Origin: Gammaproteobacteria bacterium
Lineage (GTDB): Bacteria > Pseudomonadota > Gammaproteobacteria > Pseudomonadales > Azotimanducaceae
Length of the DNA: 37,370 bases
Direction of reading: 5' to 3'
NCBI GenBank assembly: GCA_026708185.1
Contig: JAPOVK010000039.1
Location: 1-37,370 of the forward strand
A program made the position numbers and the translations under genes. Below, one piece after another: positions 5,498 to 12,570 of this stretch; within the stretch, counting starts at the first letter, position 1, and every line of letters starts with the position of its first letter. The notes below the pieces were generated by a model. It saw nothing but the letters and a program-made list of their open reading frames with translations. It had not been told where the DNA came from and ran no database searches.

Positions 5498-6433
5498 GTG
5501 CACCTCGGGCTCACCCCCTGGCACATCTCCGGCCGCGTCGATGCGCGCGAACTGGCCCGCCAGGGAGCCTTGGCCGAAAGCTGGGGCTACGAATCGTTCT
5601 GGCTTCCGGAGAACCACTTCGGCGGCAGCGCGGCGATTCCTGATCCGCTGATGCTGCTCGCGGCCGTGGCGGCGAACACCACGACGATCCGCTTGGGCAC
5701 CACATCCTATCTCCTACCCTTGCGGCATCCTCTGCAGGCTGCGGAACAGGTCGCCGTCCTCGACAAGCTCTCGGGCGGCCGGGTCATCCTCGGGGTGGGC
5801 CGCGGCTATCAGCCGGCGATGTTCGACGCCTTCTCGGTGTCGCGCAAGGACAAACGGCGCATCTTCGAGTGGTGCTTGAGCAACATGATCTCGGCCTGGC
5901 GCGGCGAGCCGATCCCGGTGGGCGACGGCGAAGAGGTCATCCTCGCGCCGTTGCCGGTGCAGCAGCCGCATCCGCCGATCTGGGTCGCGGCCTTCGGCCC
6001 CAAGGCATTGGCCCAGGCCGGGCGCTTGGGGATGCCGTACCTCGCATCGCCCATGGAGCCGGTCGAGCGTCTGCGCGCCAATTACCAACGCCACGTGGCG
6101 GCCTGCGAAGAAGCGGGCACCGTCGTTCCCCCGGAGGTACCGGTGATGCGCACGGTGTTCGTGTCGGACGACGCGGACCTCGTGGCGCGGGTGCGCGAAC
6201 AGTTGGAGATCGGCGTGCGCGAAGTCGCCTCGAGCGGACTTCGGCGGGGCTTGTCTCTCGAACCCGACGACTGGGCGATCGTCGGCGGACGCAGCGAAGT
6301 GAAGGACAAGGTGGCCGCCTACGTGGAGCAGCTCGGCGTGACGCACCTCGTGGTCACGCGTCTGCGCATTGGCCGCCTGGAGCCGGAAGCGCTCGAGCGG
6401 TCGGTTCGCCTAGCGGCGGAGATCCTCGGCTAG
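5498..6433 (+). CDS. LLM-class flavin-dependent oxidoreductase
   Basis: About 311 residues of the bacterial luciferase-like monooxygenase fold (FMN or F420 dependent). Recognisable segments are the N-terminal strand HLGLTPWHISG, the SFWLPENHF motif, the TIRLGTTSYLLPLRHP strand-turn, and AEQVAVLDKLSGGRVILGVG, all typical of this superfamily. A GTG at 5498 lies one base after the stop of the preceding gene, suggesting translational coupling. An in-frame ATG at 5441 would add residues overlapping the upstream gene with no family resemblance, so GTG is preferred. The 3' end overlaps the convergent transporter gene by 24 bp. Substrate is unknown; family members include monooxygenases and F420-dependent reductases. 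Confidence 0.9.
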   Translation: MHLGLTPWHISGRVDARELARQGALAESWGYESFWLPENHFGGSAAIPDPLMLLAAVAANTTTIRLGTTSYLLPLRHPLQAAEQVAVLDKLSGGRVILGVGRGYQPAMFDAFSVSRKDKRRIFEWCLSNMISAWRGEPIPVGDGEEVILAPLPVQQPHPPIWVAAFGPKALAQAGRLGMPYLASPMEPVERLRANYQRHVAACEEAGTVVPPEVPVMRTVFVSDDADLVARVREQLEIGVREVASSGLRRGLSLEPDDWAIVGGRSEVKDKVAAYVEQLGVTHLVVTRLRIGRLEPEALERSVRLAAEILG

Positions 6434-7222
6434 CATCTGGGCGTCCTCACCGGCGAGTTGATGGGGTTCGCTGCCGGGACCGATCTCCTCACCCTTGCGG
6501 ATGCCGAGGAACGGGCGTAGCACTGCGACGAGGCCGTAGATCGGCCCGGTGTCGACCAGGGCGACGGTCAGCTTGAACGCATAGCCCGAGGCGATGAACG
6601 TCACGAGTTGCGCGCCGAGCGCCGCGTTCTCGTCGATGGGCAGGGCACGGGCCCAGTAGTGGGTGATGAGTATCACGGAAACGGTGTCCACCAACTGGCT
6701 GATGAGCGTCGAGCCGTTGTTGCGCAGCCACAGGTGGCGTCCGTTGGTGAGCCACTTCCAGAAGTGAAAGAGCTGGACGTCGCACCATTGCGCGACCAGG
6801 TAGGCGATCATGGACGCGGTTACGGCGCCGAACGCGAGCGTCCGTATCTCGAAGAACACCGGCAACCGACCGGCGTCGTCGGCCAGGAGCCCACCGGTCT
6901 CGGGATCGATCGCCTCGAAACCGGGCAGCGCGCCGCCGATCCATAGCAGGAACACGACCCACACGTTGAGCAGGAGGCCGACCCAGACCACCTCGGTCGC
7001 TCGTTTGCGGCCGTAGAGCTCGCTGATCAGGTCGGTGCAGATGAACGTGATGGGATACGGCAGCACGCCCACCGCCACGACCATGGGGACGTTCAAGCCG
7101 AATACCTCGAACGACAGGTCGATGAACCGGCTGATGCCGAGGATGTTCAAGAGCGACAGCGTGCCGAGGAAAATGCCGGCGAGCACCAGGAAGACGCGCT
7201 CCCGCCGTCGCTTGTAGTCCAT
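6410..7222 (-). CDS. Queuosine precursor transporter (YhhQ/VUT family)
   Basis: A 270-residue integral membrane protein with about six hydrophobic segments. It carries the family motif CTDLISELYGRKRA after the second segment, and AQWCDVQLFHFWK with STLISQLVDT further on, as in YhhQ proteins (DUF165/Vut_1). Escherichia coli YhhQ imports the queuosine precursors preQ0 and preQ1 across the inner membrane. The ATG at 7222 has AAGGA just upstream; a longer open frame extends into the preceding SDR gene and is not credible. It is last in a minus-strand operon, 11 bp after the SDR stop. Because a PTPS/QueD-family gene lies two genes upstream, import or salvage of a deazapurine or pterin is a reasonable reading, although no other queuosine gene (queC, queE, queF, tgt) is present. 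Confidence 0.85.
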   Translation of the reverse strand: MDYKRRRERVFLVLAGIFLGTLSLLNILGISRFIDLSFEVFGLNVPMVVAVGVLPYPITFICTDLISELYGRKRATEVVWVGLLLNVWVVFLLWIGGALPGFEAIDPETGGLLADDAGRLPVFFEIRTLAFGAVTASMIAYLVAQWCDVQLFHFWKWLTNGRHLWLRNNGSTLISQLVDTVSVILITHYWARALPIDENAALGAQLVTFIASGYAFKLTVALVDTGPIYGLVAVLRPFLGIRKGEEIGPGSEPHQLAGEDAQMLAEDLRR

Positions 7223-7233
7223 CGTCCTTGGGG

Positions 7234-7938
7234 TCAACGCTCGACCTGACCCAGATTGGCGTGGATGACGCTCCCGTTGATCACCGGCGACGAGGCGGCC
7301 CAGAGCAGCGCGTCGGCGATCTCGGCGGGCTCGATCAGCCTGTTGAACGCCGACATGCCGCGAACCGCGTCCATGGCGTCCGCGGCGACGTGCTCGCGGA
7401 GCATCTCGGTATCGGTGAATCCCGGGCAGATGCAGGCGGTGTGGATGCCCGATCCGGCCAGGTCCTGGCAACACGCGCGCATCATGCCGATCTGGGCATG
7501 CTTGCTGATCACGTACGAGAAACTACCCGGTACGGCCTTCTCCGACAGCGTGGAACCGACGAACAGCACGCACGAGCCCTTGCCCATGTGTGGCAGAACC
7601 AAACGGTTCAGCGTGTTGATGGCGACCACGTTGATGTCGAGGACGGTGCGAAGGTCGTCGCTTGCCGTCTCGGTGGCCGTGTCGTTGGCGAGCCTCGAGG
7701 CGTTGTGGACCAGCGCGATTTCATCCGCGTCTTCGAGGATGGGTGCGAGCGCGTCCGCGACCTCGTCGGCGAAATCCTCTGCGAGGTCGCAGCGAATGTG
7801 CGTGACATCGGAGAGCGGGCAGACGCGCCTCGACAGGTTGACGACCGAATAGCCGTGTTCCAGGAACTTCTCGGCGGCGGCGAGTCCGATGCCGGCGCTC
7901 GCGCCGGTGACGATGGCGAGTTTCAGCGTGGCCTCCAT
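7234..7938 (-). CDS. Short-chain dehydrogenase/reductase (SDR)
   Basis: A 234-residue cytosolic NAD(P)H-dependent oxidoreductase of classical SDR layout. The nucleotide-binding motif TGASAGIG spans 11-18. The usual NNAG is replaced by VHNAS (77-81). The catalytic residues are Ser129, with Tyr142 and Lys146 in the YxxxK motif, followed by CPGFTDTEM. The start at 7938 (MEATLKLAIVTG) gives a normal SDR N terminus; an ATG at 7953 would add five residues. Either start overlaps the stop of the PTPS-like gene (7923), implying translational coupling. The pairing with a pterin-synthase-family protein makes a sepiapterin-reductase-like role conceivable, since that enzyme is also an SDR, but nothing in the sequence proves it. 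Confidence 0.9.
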   Translation of the reverse strand: MEATLKLAIVTGASAGIGLAAAEKFLEHGYSVVNLSRRVCPLSDVTHIRCDLAEDFADEVADALAPILEDADEIALVHNASRLANDTATETASDDLRTVLDINVVAINTLNRLVLPHMGKGSCVLFVGSTLSEKAVPGSFSYVISKHAQIGMMRACCQDLAGSGIHTACICPGFTDTEMLREHVAADAMDAVRGMSAFNRLIEPAEIADALLWAASSPVINGSVIHANLGQVER

Positions 7939-8417
7939 GCCGAGCGGGCCCATTGTCCGGGGCCGGACGAGACGCGCAATTCCAGGGCGTCGACGCGTAG
8001 TTCCGCGAAGTCCGCGCTGCTCGTCAGTTGAGTGACGAACCAGTGCGCGAGCTCTTCGACGGTGACGTTGCGTACGGGTAAGAGCTTCACGTCGCGGCGC
8101 AGGAAGGGCAATCGTTCATCGCCGAAGGCGACCGTGACATAGTCGGGGCCCTCTTCGATGTCGAGGTAGGGGGACGCGGTCGGCAGCAGCACGACCTCGT
8201 CGAGCGAGTCGCACAGTTCGCGAAGCTTCGACTTCACGATGTTGTAGTCGAAGCAAAGGCCACCGTGGTCTATGGGTCCGTCGAGCGTGGCCGTTACGAA
8301 GAAGTTGTGGCCGTGCAGGTTCTCGCGCCGGGTCGCCGACAACACGGTGAAGTGCGCGGCGGCGAAATGCATGTCCTCCTTCGCGATTTCGATGCGAGTC
8401 CGCCGCTGGTCGCTCAT
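7923..8417 (-). CDS. 6-pyruvoyl-tetrahydropterin synthase / QueD family protein
   Basis: A 164-residue member of the tunnelling-fold PTPS/QueD family, whose members act on dihydroneopterin triphosphate to make 6-pyruvoyl- or 6-carboxytetrahydropterin. The zinc-binding histidines are visible as His22 (AAAHFT) and His35/His37 (LHGHNF). The catalytic Cys found four residues before the first HGH histidine in E. coli QueD is Arg31 here, followed by Glu32. The chain also has inserted acidic segments between 85 and 110. It therefore may not catalyse the standard QueD reaction. ATG 8417 overlaps the stop of the upstream HAD gene in an ATGA arrangement, and its own end overlaps the SDR start, so three successive genes are translationally linked. 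Confidence 0.85.
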   Translation of the reverse strand: MSDQRRTRIEIAKEDMHFAAAHFTVLSATRRENLHGHNFFVTATLDGPIDHGGLCFDYNIVKSKLRELCDSLDEVVLLPTASPYLDIEEGPDYVTVAFGDERLPFLRRDVKLLPVRNVTVEELAHWFVTQLTSSADFAELRVDALELRVSSGPGQWARSAWRPR

Positions 8418-9106
8418 GGGTCGCCGAGCACCGCATCGGCAAACTCGCCCAGGGAGTCGAATGACCATGTGGGCTCCGCCTTCGCGTGTTCAACGGGCCT
8501 CGCCGCGTTCCGGTCGCGTCGAATCCACACTGTCGGAAGCCCTAGGGCGGTGGCTGGTTCGATGTCGTGGTAGACGCTCTGCGCGACATGCAGGATGCGG
8601 GCGTCGCCGAGGACCTGTCGGGCTTGATCGAACATGCGTCGATCCGGCTTGTAGGCCCCGACGTCCTCGGCCGTGATGACGTGTTTGAAGTCGACGCCGA
8701 GGCGCTCGGCACTGCCGGCGAAGAGGGCGTTGTCGACATTGGACACGACGACGAGGTCGAAATGCTCGCCCAGCCGGTGGAGGGCGGGCACGGTGTCCGC
8801 GAACGTTGGCCAATCGGCGACGCTGGCGGCGAAGGCGTCGAGCACCTCGTCACTCGGCGTGAAGCCGAGCCGCGATCCGAGCCGGCGGAGCACCTCGCGG
8901 AGCACGTCCGCGTACAGGACGCCGTCGGCCTGGATCTCCGGCTCGGCGTCGGCGAAGAACTCGAGCAGGAAGTCGTCGATGACGTGGGCATCGCGCTCCA
9001 GCAGCAGCGGCTGCAAGTGGCTGACGAGGCCCGCGCCCCAGTCGATCAGCGTGCCATAGCAGTCGAAGGTGAGCGCGTCGTAGTCGTTCGCGTTGGGATT
9101 GGCCAT
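8414..9106 (-). CDS. HAD-superfamily hydrolase, haloacid dehalogenase type II-like
   Basis: A 230-residue HAD hydrolase. Motif I is FDCYGTL with nucleophile Asp15, motif II is VVSNVDN with Ser122, the conserved lysine is Lys153 in YKPD, and motif III is HVAQSVYHDIEPA with Asp181. The FDxYGTL start and HVAQSxYHDI block are characteristic of the L-2-haloacid dehalogenase branch, though many relatives are phosphatases. A normal cap lies between motifs I and II. It follows the CULT-domain gene by 30 bp and overlaps the PTPS-like gene by four bases. In this setting dephosphorylation of a pterin or nucleotide intermediate is a possibility; that is inference from neighbourhood only. Confidence 0.9.
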   Translation of the reverse strand: MANPNANDYDALTFDCYGTLIDWGAGLVSHLQPLLLERDAHVIDDFLLEFFADAEPEIQADGVLYADVLREVLRRLGSRLGFTPSDEVLDAFAASVADWPTFADTVPALHRLGEHFDLVVVSNVDNALFAGSAERLGVDFKHVITAEDVGAYKPDRRMFDQARQVLGDARILHVAQSVYHDIEPATALGLPTVWIRRDRNAARPVEHAKAEPTWSFDSLGEFADAVLGDP

Positions 9107-9136
9107 TCGTTGGTCTTCGCGGGTTTGCGACGCTGG

Positions 9137-9535
9137 TCAGCCCGCTTGGACGCGGTCGAGGATCAACCCGTAGAAGTGTTCCCCAGGCCGTTCGAAGAGC
9201 CAGCCCATGTGCTGATCGCAGTTGCCGCAGTTGGCGAGCTGCCAGACGTAGCCCTTGAACCAGCTATCGGCTGAATGCGCGCCGCCGCTGATCGCGCAGC
9301 CGTGCGCGTCGCTGTGGCATCCGAAGTGATGCACGTAGCCGTAGGGGTTGGTGCAAGTGTGCTGGAACGAGCCGTTGACCTCGATGCGGTCCTGCACGTG
9401 GCCGATCACATGGGAGCACGCCGTGCAGAAAAGGAAGCCTTCCTTGGGTCGGGGGTCGTCATCGACCACGTCCTTGAGTTTGGGATCCAGGGTCTCGCGC
9501 TCGACGACGCCGACCCCTTCGGATTCATCGCTCAT
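9137..9535 (-). CDS. Free-standing CULT-domain (cereblon ligand-binding) protein
   Basis: A 132-residue protein made almost entirely of a CULT domain, the thalidomide-binding domain of eukaryotic cereblon also known in some bacteria. Zinc is expected to be held by Cys37/Cys40 (CTAC) and Cys103/Cys106 (CGNC). The aromatic cage is intact: Trp92 and Trp98 in DSWFKGYVW, and Trp112 in HMGWLFE, matching the three cage tryptophans of human cereblon (W380, W386, W400). The human His378 position is Asp90 here. Residues 1-33 are acidic and probably disordered. No signal peptide, so cytosolic. A strong Shine-Dalgarno (AAGGGAGG) sits just upstream of the ATG. It heads the HAD-PTPS-SDR-transporter operon. 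Bacterial CULT domains bind cyclic imides and uridine-like ligands in vitro; the natural ligand is unknown. Confidence 0.9.
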   Translation of the reverse strand: MSDESEGVGVVERETLDPKLKDVVDDDPRPKEGFLFCTACSHVIGHVQDRIEVNGSFQHTCTNPYGYVHHFGCHSDAHGCAISGGAHSADSWFKGYVWQLANCGNCDQHMGWLFERPGEHFYGLILDRVQAG

Positions 9536-9728
9536 GCGCAGCCTCCCTTAATCTATGCCTTGACGTGCGCGGACGGCCACACCCGCATTCGGGCCGTGAC
9601 ACAACGTCCGTTGCTTGGCCCGAAGCCCACGCACCCCGGGCGTCCTTCTGCGAACAATCCAACAACTTCGAGCGGCGTGCAAGGGCTTCCCTAGCAGGCC
9701 AGGCCGACCTTGTTTTACGAGCGCGGGG

Positions 9729-10946
9729 TCAGGACGCGGCCTTCAGTATCGCTCGCAGATCGACGCCCGGGTCGCCGAGGCTGCCGGCATCGACCTTTTT
9801 GCCGACCAACTGCCGGGCCGCCATGAACTCGCGGGCGCTGTTGACCGCATCGGCGGCGATCACCGTATCGCCTGACAGGTGGAAGGTCGCGAACTGATTG
9901 GTCGTCGGATCGCCGCGCGTCACCTGCCCGTCCGCGTCCGCCGAGAAGCCCACCATCTGCAGCTTCAGATCATACTGGTCCGACCAGAACCAAGGCACGG
10001 TGGCGTAGACCTTGTCGCCGCCGGCGAGATTGGCGGCGGCGACCCGGGACTGCTCCATGGCGTTGGGCACCGACTCGAGGCGCAGGCGTCGCCCGAGTAC
10101 CGGATTCGGGTGGTTGGTGCAGTCGCCGACGGCGTGGATGTTCGGATCCGTCGTGCGCGTGGTTTCGTCGACGATGATGCCGTTCTCGCAATCGAGCCCG
10201 GCAGCCGCGGCGAGTTCGACGTTCGGCACGATGCCGATCCCGACGACGGCAAGGTCGGCGTCCACGAGCTCACCACCGGCGCACACGACTTGCTCGAGGC
10301 GCCCCTCGGCCCCCACGAACGATTCCGCCCGCAACCCCGTGCGAATGACGACCCCCTTCCCAGTGTGCAGGTCGTGGTAGAAAGCCGACATCTCAGGTGT
10401 GGTGACGCGTCCGAGGATCCGGTCCTCCATCTCCAGTACGGTCACTGCCAAGCCCATCTCCACGGCGACCGCCGCGACCTCGAGGCCGATGTAGCCGCCG
10501 CCGACGATGGCAATTCGGCGTCCAGGCTTGAGATCGAGGCGAATGGCGTCGACGTCCGCGATGGTGCGCAGGTAGTGGACGCCGGCCAGGTCGTCGCCGG
10601 CGGTGATGAGTTTCCGGGGCCGCGAGCCGGTCGCGAGCAACAGCTTGTCGTAGCCCAAGGTCTCGCCGTCGGCGCACTCGAGCGTTCTCGCATCGGGGTT
10701 GATTCCAAGGGCACGAACGCCCTTGCGCACGGCGATGTCCCTGTCCGCGTAGAACTTCTCCGGGCGCAGGTAGACGCGCTCGAGGCCGTACTCGCCGGCT
10801 AGGTATTGCTTCGACAGCGGTGGGCGCTGATACGGGATGTGCGGCTCGTCGGCGACGACGATGACTTCGCCTTCGTAGCCTTCCTGACGCAGGCTGGCCG
10901 CGGCTTGGCCACCGGCGTGGCCGCCGCCGACGATGACGACCGTCAT
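9729..10946 (-). CDS. FAD-dependent NAD(P)H:ferredoxin/rubredoxin reductase
   Basis: A 405-residue flavoprotein of the putidaredoxin/rubredoxin/BphA4-type reductase family, which passes electrons from NAD(P)H through FAD to a small iron-sulfur protein. The FAD-binding GGGHAGG lies at 7-13, RPPLSK at 41-46 is typical of the family, the NAD(P)-binding GGGYIGLE is at 149-156, and the second FAD motif AVGDC is at 272-276. ATG 10946 places the first glycine motif in its normal position; the open frame extends 22 codons further without resemblance. No ferredoxin or oxygenase gene is adjacent, so its partner must be elsewhere. The 193-bp gap to the CULT gene leaves co-transcription with that operon open. 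Confidence 0.93.
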   Translation of the reverse strand: MTVVIVGGGHAGGQAAASLRQEGYEGEVIVVADEPHIPYQRPPLSKQYLAGEYGLERVYLRPEKFYADRDIAVRKGVRALGINPDARTLECADGETLGYDKLLLATGSRPRKLITAGDDLAGVHYLRTIADVDAIRLDLKPGRRIAIVGGGYIGLEVAAVAVEMGLAVTVLEMEDRILGRVTTPEMSAFYHDLHTGKGVVIRTGLRAESFVGAEGRLEQVVCAGGELVDADLAVVGIGIVPNVELAAAAGLDCENGIIVDETTRTTDPNIHAVGDCTNHPNPVLGRRLRLESVPNAMEQSRVAAANLAGGDKVYATVPWFWSDQYDLKLQMVGFSADADGQVTRGDPTTNQFATFHLSGDTVIAADAVNSAREFMAARQLVGKKVDAGSLGDPGVDLRAILKAAS

Positions 10947-11139
10947 TGTTCTTTCTTGCCGGTGGTGGCCCGAGGACCTATAGCCGGTTGAAATCGCCAC
11001 TGGCTGCGGCAACGGTGTTCAGTCATCAGTGCTTTCTTGCCTACATCCGGCTTTGCGCGTCGAGACGGCGACACAGATTACCCACGTTTGTGGCCCATCG
11101 CTAGACAGCAGGGGCGGCGCCCTTCCGCGCGGACCTGCG

Positions 11140-12570
11140 TCACTTGCCCGCCAACGCCGCCCGCCCAAGCCGCTCCACGAGGTCGAGTGTCTTGCGCACG
11201 TCATCCCACGTCGTGGTGTGGTTCTCGATGCACATCCGCAGCGAGAACACGCCCTTCAACGATGTCGACGAGAAGAACGCCAGTTCGTCCCAGAACACCT
11301 CCGCCAGTACGTTCCGATTGACCTCGTCCAGGCTGCGCTCGTCGTGGCCGTCGCCGGGATTCACTCGGAAGCAGACTATGCCCAGCGACACCGGCGTCAT
11401 CAGCTCTAGAACCGGACTGGCCTCGATGTGGGCCTCGGCGCGTCGCGCCAGGTCCAGTCCTTCCTGCACCGCGGCGCGGAACCCGGCCATGCCGAAGGTC
11501 TGCACGGACATCCACATCTTCAGCGCCCGCGGGGCCCGGCTGAGCTGCAGCCCGCGATCCGCGAAGTTCGGGTGGTTCGTGCCCCACACGGTGTCCTGCA
11601 GAACGTCGTGGCCGATCGCGAATGCGTCCTCGAGATGCGCAACGTCCTTCACCATGAGCGCACCCGTTTCGTAGGGCTGGAAGAACCACTTGTGCGCATC
11701 GATCCCCACCGAGTCCGCCCTCTCGATGCCCGCGAGCAGGTCCTTGCCTTCCGACGTCACCAATGCGAATCCGCCGTAGGCGGCGTCCACATGCAGCCAG
11801 ATGCCTTCGCGTGCGCAGAGGTCCGCCAGCGGCACCAAGGGGTCGATGGCACCCGTTCCGGGGCTGCCGGCGTTCGCGCACACCGCGACGGGCTGCAGGC
11901 CGGTGGCGCGGTCGTCGGCGATGCATTGACGCAACCTGGCCAAGTCGATGCGGAAGGCGTCGTCGGAAGGCACGAGCCGGATGTTCTCTCGACGCACGCC
12001 GGCGACCAGGGCCGCGCGTTTCAAGGCGCTGTGACTCTGATCGCTCATGTAGACAGCGGGCCGCTCGGGATGTCCGGCAGCTTCCCGGGCCGTCACCAGC
12101 GCTTCGACGCTCGCCGCCGAACCACCGCTCGTGAGCAGGCCGCCGCCGGTCTCCGGGTAGCCGATCCAGCCTCGTATCCAGTCCAGGACGACGAGTTCGA
12201 GCTGGCTGGTGCCGCTCGACACGAGCCACGTGCACGAGTTGATGTTGAAGCCGGCGGCGACGAATTCCGCCACTACGCCGGGCCAAGTCGTCGCCGAGGG
12301 CACGAATCCGAAGAACCGTGGGTGGTCGAGCCGCGCCGCGTACGGGAGTACGTCGCGCAACGCCTGCTCCAGCACGTCCTCGGCGGAGCGACCGTGTTCG
12401 GGAGGCGGCGTGCCGAGCTTGTCCTCCAGCACTTCGCGGAAATCCCCGTCCCAAGGTCTTGAGTCGCTCAAACCTTCGAGGCGGTCGATAAGTGCTTGCG
12501 TTGCCTTGTCGGCGAGGCGCCGCATCGCCTCGGGCGTCATGCGCAGCACGCCACGGCCGTGTCCCTCCAC
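11140..12570 (-). CDS. Group II PLP-dependent amino acid decarboxylase
   Basis: A 476-residue cytosolic enzyme of the aromatic-L-amino-acid/tyrosine/glutamate decarboxylase family. It removes CO2 from an amino acid to give an amine; the substrate is not determined. Key features are HVDAAYGGF (Asp contacting the PLP pyridine nitrogen), the Schiff-base lysine Lys294 in DAHKWF, SGTSQLELVVLDW and LLTSGGSAAS in the PLP-phosphate region, and the N-terminal FFGFVPSATTW segment. The GTG at 12570 is chosen over the ATG at 12540 because GAGGAGG lies six bases upstream of the GTG. It is 193 bp upstream of the reductase start on the same strand. Confidence 0.92.
   Translation of the reverse strand: MEGHGRGVLRMTPEAMRRLADKATQALIDRLEGLSDSRPWDGDFREVLEDKLGTPPPEHGRSAEDVLEQALRDVLPYAARLDHPRFFGFVPSATTWPGVVAEFVAAGFNINSCTWLVSSGTSQLELVVLDWIRGWIGYPETGGGLLTSGGSAASVEALVTAREAAGHPERPAVYMSDQSHSALKRAALVAGVRRENIRLVPSDDAFRIDLARLRQCIADDRATGLQPVAVCANAGSPGTGAIDPLVPLADLCAREGIWLHVDAAYGGFALVTSEGKDLLAGIERADSVGIDAHKWFFQPYETGALMVKDVAHLEDAFAIGHDVLQDTVWGTNHPNFADRGLQLSRAPRALKMWMSVQTFGMAGFRAAVQEGLDLARRAEAHIEASPVLELMTPVSLGIVCFRVNPGDGHDERSLDEVNRNVLAEVFWDELAFFSSTSLKGVFSLRMCIENHTTTWDDVRKTLDLVERLGRAALAGK

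Follow-up and report, generated by a model that had tools for sequence, protein, structure and literature searches.

The open reading frame at positions 9137-9535 of the window, as we call the whole 37,370-nt stretch of DNA analysed here, almost certainly encodes a single-domain CULT (cereblon-like) protein, and it heads a tightly packed gene run, CULT-HAD-PTPS-SDR-transporter, whose second gene, for a HAD-superfamily hydrolase (HAD), hardly ever occurs in this family without CULT, which it usually adjoins. The protein adds a new member to a known family, bacterial single-domain CULT proteins having been described since 2015. The CULT-HAD partnership, as far as our literature searches show, appears undescribed, and so, it appears, does the Asp-type pocket found in this family, in which the residue equivalent to human His378 is an aspartate.

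The translation of the 132-aa frame contains both zinc-binding CxxC motifs of the CULT family in CULT spacing (Cys37/Cys40 and Cys103/Cys106), together with Trp92, Trp98, Trp112 and Asp90. In the phmmer alignment to MsCI4, the single-domain CULT protein of Magnetospirillum gryphiswaldense, and in an alignment of CULT loci, the three tryptophans line up with W380, W386 and W400 of human cereblon. Searching the PDB with phmmer matched engineered MsCI4 (6r0q) at E = 2.2e-19 and wild-type MsCI4 (4v2y) at E = 2.9e-17, with all MsCI4 forms between 2.2e-19 and 5e-17 and the cereblon domain chains at about 2e-9; these E values place the frame far beyond chance. All 46 distinct PDB sequences matched at E up to 0.1 are named cereblon, and a profile of 78 relatives again recovered 46 sequences, every one named cereblon, with E values of about 1e-27 for MsCI4 and about 1e-17 for cereblon domains. 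Features of full-length cereblon (the LON domain and DDB1-binding region) were not found in this 132-aa frame, in which the only Pfam match is a sub-threshold one to Yippee-Mis18 over residues 36-120.

The AlphaFold model of the protein (mean pLDDT 83.8, pTM 0.72) has block means of 90-98 for residues 31-130 and 87 for residues 131-132, and falls below 50 at residues 1-17 and 19-22. A Foldseek search with this model returned MsCI4 first (best E 3.7e-10) and cereblon next; the best 50 folds listed were all MsCI4 or cereblon, and the fold matches include MsCI4 entries titled as complexes with valerolactam, deoxyuridine and glutarimides. The predicted beta-tent fold superposes on MsCI4, at an rmsd of 1.5 Å over 102 columns for 4v2y_B and of 1.5-2.9 Å across MsCI4 chains, and from this superposition we infer that the three tryptophans form a single cage. 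An earlier sequence-only reading had called the product a cereblon-like CULT protein with the cage spacing of human cereblon, to be checked by profile search and superposition. Its coordinates, length and residue positions are correct (the strand, which it omitted, is minus), MsCI4 and cereblon came first in both sequence and fold searches, the tryptophan spacing is that of the human protein, the model fits the MsCI4 chains, and profile search assigned the protein to neither MsrB nor Yippee above cut-off; its equation of Asp90 with human His378, and hence with MsCI4 Phe77, agrees with the numbering in the accessible part of PMC8900816.

We compared residues across 56 rows of loci found without a motif filter (55 distinct, the window being present twice), and the seven Cys and Trp positions were identical in 56/56. 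Position 90 is variable: it is Asp in 28/30 family loci, with His in the other two (L029 and L030), and Asp in 15 of 18 further family loci, with His in two (L160, L167) and Gly in one (L166). It is Phe in 20/20 phylum-sample loci (L112-L131), as in MsCI4, and reads Phe, His, Ala, His and His in the five same-order loci L150-L154. Loci L031-L110 are left out of these frequencies, since the scan pattern that found them itself contained Asp. Asp90 was rejected as an indicator of linkage to HAD, because it follows clade: L029/L158 and L160 have His at this position with HAD still present, and many Asp-type loci are without HAD. Two CULT copies are aberrant, L166 (genome G597), which is aligned without Trp at positions 92 and 98, and L100, which has a stop codon inside the match range; either could reflect decay or assembly error. 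The N-terminal tail (residues 1-30, modelled with low confidence) of the window protein and its relatives carries a motif such as LDPKL, the strict form of which occurs in 76/124 Asp-type, 2/41 Phe-type and 0/9 His-type rows (rows that include duplicates between collections), and which is possibly a docking motif.

In MsCI4, Phe77 is the equivalent of human His378; the amino group of a bound glutarimide pairs with the Phe77 backbone and its keto group with that of Trp79, Tyr101 gives a third bond that is absent in the human protein, and Glu76, Phe77 and Pro51 form a channel around the protruding part of iberdomide (PMC8900816). In our alignment Glu76, Phe77, Pro51 and Tyr101 correspond to Ala89, Asp90, Pro64 and Phe114 of the window protein. 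The side chain at position 90 would probably line the exit channel rather than the cage floor, and the Asp90 carboxylate may face the protruding part of a ligand. The window protein is about 34% identical to MsCI4 (MGR_0879; 4v2y, 4v31, 5ohb), with which it shares the single domain, the two CxxC motifs and the three cage tryptophans, but it differs in having Asp90 for Phe77, Phe114 for Tyr101 at the cage base and Tyr65 for Ala52 in the hairpin tip. Equivalents of W380, W386 and W400 and of Asn351-Pro352 of the human thalidomide-binding domain are kept, whereas His378 is replaced by Asp and His353 by Tyr, in a frame that is without the LON domain or the DDB1-binding part. The residue at the base of the human cage is Phe402, a Phe as in the window protein.

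Table 1. Genes of the CULT-led run and its upstream neighbour in the window.
Feature	Position	Strand	Remarks
CULT-domain protein, 132 aa	9137..9535	minus	Asp-type: Asp90 = human His378; Phe114 = MsCI4 Tyr101; Asn63-Pro64-Tyr65 = human Asn351-Pro352-His353
HAD-superfamily hydrolase, type II dehalogenase / L-azetidine-2-carboxylate hydrolase-like	8414..9106	minus	starts 30 nt after CULT stop
PTPS-family enzyme, PTPS-III motif ExxHGH (RENLHGH)	7923..8417	minus	start overlaps HAD stop (ATGA)
Short-chain dehydrogenase/reductase (SDR)	7234..7953	minus	overlaps PTPS end
Vut_1 / queuosine-precursor-transporter-type membrane protein (TIGR00697)	6410..7237	minus	directly after SDR; last gene of run
Ferredoxin-reductase-like FAD enzyme	9729..10946	minus	upstream, 193 nt before CULT start; within 8 kb of CULT in 57/107 loci

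The FAD enzyme gene upstream of CULT (Table 1) is probably a unit separate from the CULT run. A gene for a PLP-dependent decarboxylase, also upstream and on the same strand (11140-12570), lies near CULT in only 2/107 loci and therefore falls outside the conserved unit. No sigma-70-like promoter was found in 6300-11100, where 0.5 would be expected by chance, and no structured RNA was found near CULT, the sole Rfam match in the window being a tRNA-Gly (ccc) at 142-216. Of the 107 loci, 65 contain PTPS within 8 kb of CULT, 63 contain SDR, 57 the FAD reductase and 49 HAD. The gene lying within 250 nt downstream of CULT in 78 of these loci (L031-L108) is HAD in 43 (with only a partial match in L080), PTPS in 21 and another gene in 14, and in some loci the HAD match starts before the CULT stop codon is complete. 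Among the 29 remaining loci, several of which end early downstream (L132, L136, L139 and L150 have less than 900 nt of sequence beyond CULT), only L158, a family member, has HAD downstream. In CULT loci outside the family, several again ending early, HAD was beside CULT in none, and no conserved neighbourhood was seen except for a rhodanese-like gene directly downstream in five loci. In these five (L144, L145, L148, L149 and L156, all Phe-type and from the phylum sample), the next same-strand gene belongs to one gene cluster with a rhodanese-like domain, as identified by Pfam on the L144 copy.

CULT occurs in 35/58 genomes of relatives (own genome included), among them 16/16 of the genus; in 95/200 sampled family genomes, in one of which (G585) it is a fragment with two stops; and in 21/398 genomes of a phylum sample (own genome included). 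The operon context to which the sequence-only reading had pointed is real and conserved, and its description of such proteins as rare suits the phylum sample but goes too far for the family. Contigs of named genomes contain at least 80 CULT loci; of those listed, 78 are labelled Gammaproteobacteria, Pseudomonadales, Pseudomonadaceae, Proteobacteria or Ca. Azophilus (which belongs to Ca. Azotimanducaceae) and two Deltaproteobacteria. Spread by plasmid or phage was rejected, as plasmid and phage records gave no CULT match and one scan of viral contigs gave no confirmed relative.

The linkage of HAD to CULT was counted in the 200 family genomes with HAD matches at E 1e-20 or better, distances being taken between matched stretches. 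HAD is present in 62 of these genomes and CULT in 61 of the 62 (Fisher p = 2e-25, uncorrected for relatedness). It lies on the same strand and within 150 nt downstream of CULT in 56/62, at 483, 1,214 and 2,223 nt in three more, and on a different contig in two, in one of which (G524) the HAD is only 36% identical. The HAD genome with no CULT match (G544, locus L159) keeps HAD after the FAD reductase, in an assembly with undetermined bases. Conversely, 34/95 CULT-bearing family genomes, some genomes being incomplete, are without HAD at E 1e-20, and CULT must therefore have a use apart from HAD. Beside CULT in G026 and G031, HAD was matched only in pieces; in G005, G014, G015 and G022, PTPS is located elsewhere with HAD still beside CULT.

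The closest PDB sequence to this HAD is 3smv/8ywo/9v14, named (S)-2-haloacid dehalogenase / L-azetidine-2-carboxylate hydrolase (E 3e-48), with 96/219 aligned residues identical to 3smv (43.8%). Against TIGR01428, haloacid dehalogenase type II, it scores 122.0 bits, just below the cut-off of 125.4, and it has weak matches to pyrimidine nucleotidases (E 1e-9). Residues D15, T19, N123, K153, S177, H180 and D181 are kept in 47/47 near-full-length copies and S122 in 45; the catalytic roles of these residues are known from HAD enzymes in general. We take 3smv to be the L-azetidine-2-carboxylate hydrolase of Pseudomonas. AzhA, the fungal hydrolase of this compound, shares 44.54% identity with the Pseudomonas enzyme, and no CULT neighbour is mentioned for AzhA in the accessible part of PMC8016842. 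Our literature searches, in which subscription journals were thinly covered, found no paper on CULT gene context, which is weak evidence of novelty; the sole paper found to join cereblon with haloacid dehalogenase concerns schizophrenia. In their accessible parts, PMC4287342 contains neither 'operon' nor 'gene neighborhood', and PMC4449219 does not contain 'operon'.

The explanation we favour, to which we give somewhat less than an even chance, is that HAD acts on the small molecule bound by the zinc-stabilised cage, which would be a cyclic imide, a lactam or a cyclic amino acid. As in MsCI4, backbone contacts from Asp90 and Trp92 would keep a ring in the cage, that of a small, uncharged lactam or cyclic imide or of a cyclic amino-acid derivative closely akin to these, and the Asp90 carboxylate at the cage mouth would read a positive charge or hydrogen-bond donor on the protruding part. 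HAD might then hydrolyse the same compound or its product, by attack on the ring or the alpha-carbon as L-azetidine-2-carboxylate hydrolase does, with CULT serving as the binding, sensing or delivery partner in a small detoxification or salvage step. The CULT identity, the cage and zinc residues identical in 56/56 rows, the HAD linkage and the intact HAD core residues all argue for this explanation. Against it count the 34/95 CULT genomes without HAD, G544 with HAD and no CULT, the lack of HAD beside CULT outside the family, the tracking of clade rather than HAD by Asp90, the glycosylase-like divergent neighbour in 30 family genomes, and the HAD score just under the type II cut-off (122.0 vs 125.4). 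It seems to us unlikely that Asp-type CULT and HAD form a two-gene system devoted to a cyclic amino-acid metabolite (one resembling azetidine-2-carboxylate, or the free imide of cyclised Asn/Gln), in which CULT captures or senses the ring and HAD opens it.

We regard as unlikely the alternative that the protein reads protein damage, its cage binding C-terminal cyclic imides (from cyclised Asn or Gln) akin to human cereblon and passing damaged proteins to a protease, with HAD and PTPS as mere neighbours. C-terminal cyclic imides are the recognised cereblon degron (PMC11974815), the cage residues are the same in all 56 rows, and the conserved low-confidence tail found ahead of the domain in many Asp-type proteins might act as a docking motif. 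Genes for a Do-family serine protease (several genes downstream, opposite strand, 25 loci) and for a type I methionyl aminopeptidase (upstream, opposite strand, 21 loci) also recur in the surroundings of CULT; however, the protease genes lie outside the CULT run and are mostly not adjacent, and the HAD linkage is left unexplained by such a reader.

Distinctly unlikely, in our view, is that the protein senses uracil, uridine or DNA damage, a role put forward for MsCI4, without any particular tie to HAD. Uridine binds MsCI4 with low micromolar affinity (PMC4449219), and uracil binding has been tied to DNA damage (PMC4287342). In 31/107 loci CULT has a divergent upstream neighbour no more than 700 nt away, a gene with a methyladenine-glycosylase domain (PF03352, 62.3 bits; e.g. 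L090:9245-9919); the nearest PDB sequences to this gene's product are 3-methyladenine DNA glycosylases I (1e-8), but its scores fall far short of the Tag equivalog cut-offs. Among 200 family genomes this glycosylase-like gene is present in 76, 33 with CULT and 43 without, and in the 33 it is divergent within 150 nt of CULT in 28, with two more at 157 and 159 nt; at E 1e-20 it is absent from 15/16 same-genus genomes, the window's included. Unlike HAD, the gene is thus independent of CULT, and its position keeps a DNA-damage or uracil role open. The weak matches of HAD to pyrimidine nucleotidases would also suit a uracil sensor, although HAD is much closer to the dehalogenase/azetidine hydrolase than to these.

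More doubtful still is a role in pterin or folate metabolism, in which the Asp-type cage would bind a pterin, with Asp90 paired to its 2-amino/N3-H edge, and sense or carry the product of PTPS and SDR. These two genes lie within 8 kb of CULT in 65/107 and 63/107 loci. The PTPS of the window is closest to the Plasmodium enzyme (E 5e-19), and RExLHGH is found in it and in 66/66 PTPS copies of the fetched loci, with no Cys at the PTPS-I position; ExxHGH is the signature of PTPS-III (PMC5041015). Like known PTPS-III proteins (Plasmodium 2a0s/1y13; the bacterial folate bypass), it has this motif and is without the PTPS-I Cys; it differs in belonging, in many loci, to a run headed by CULT. FolB was not found in 15/16 same-genus genomes and is present in 18/21 other family genomes searched, where it coexists with PTPS or the genome has one of the two. 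PTPS-III may replace FolB in the genus, as a likely folate bypass independent of CULT. The SDR has no match above the NCBIfam cut-offs among the 25 families listed. In the seven CULT-less same-family genomes of the relatives set (G016, G023, G025, G028, G029, G035, G036), PTPS is kept in six and SDR in six, two of these SDR matches containing an internal stop, and PTPS and SDR are therefore not dependent on CULT. We rated the pterin reading lower because of this persistence and because they sit elsewhere in several CULT genomes, PTPS not being beside CULT in G005, G014, G015, G019 and G022; moreover, side chain 90 probably lies in the exit channel.

Finally, it is hardly credible that the product is a zinc protein of Yippee or MsrB type, sharing the beta-tent fold, rather than CULT: its sole Pfam match is Yippee-Mis18 (PF03226), which 68/78 alignment members also match, with four matching SelR (E 0.01), but it scores 22.5 bits against a gathering threshold of 26.6, has no Pfam SelR match, exceeds the cut-off of no NCBIfam model and reaches 14.6 bits with an MsrB-type one whose cut-off is 179, and its 46 PDB sequences and the best 50 folds listed are all cereblon or MsCI4.

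When the CULT domain was defined, its bacterial single-domain group was placed mainly in delta- and in some alpha- and gamma-proteobacteria, and uracil and uridine were discussed as ligands (PMC4287342); for uridine, no biological context could be consolidated (PMC4449219). MsCI4 has served as a crystallographic stand-in for cereblon, and the function and natural ligand of bacterial CULT proteins have lacked a biological context. A strongly linked HAD with its core residues intact offers a short list of candidate CULT ligands, and the Asp-type cage is a natural variant of the thalidomide pocket; together, the pocket and the HAD partnership make the long-standing question of what bacterial CULT proteins bind a testable one. 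Were the two-gene system true, it would suggest that the damage-reading cage of cereblon descends from, or is held in common with, a bacterial small-molecule module.
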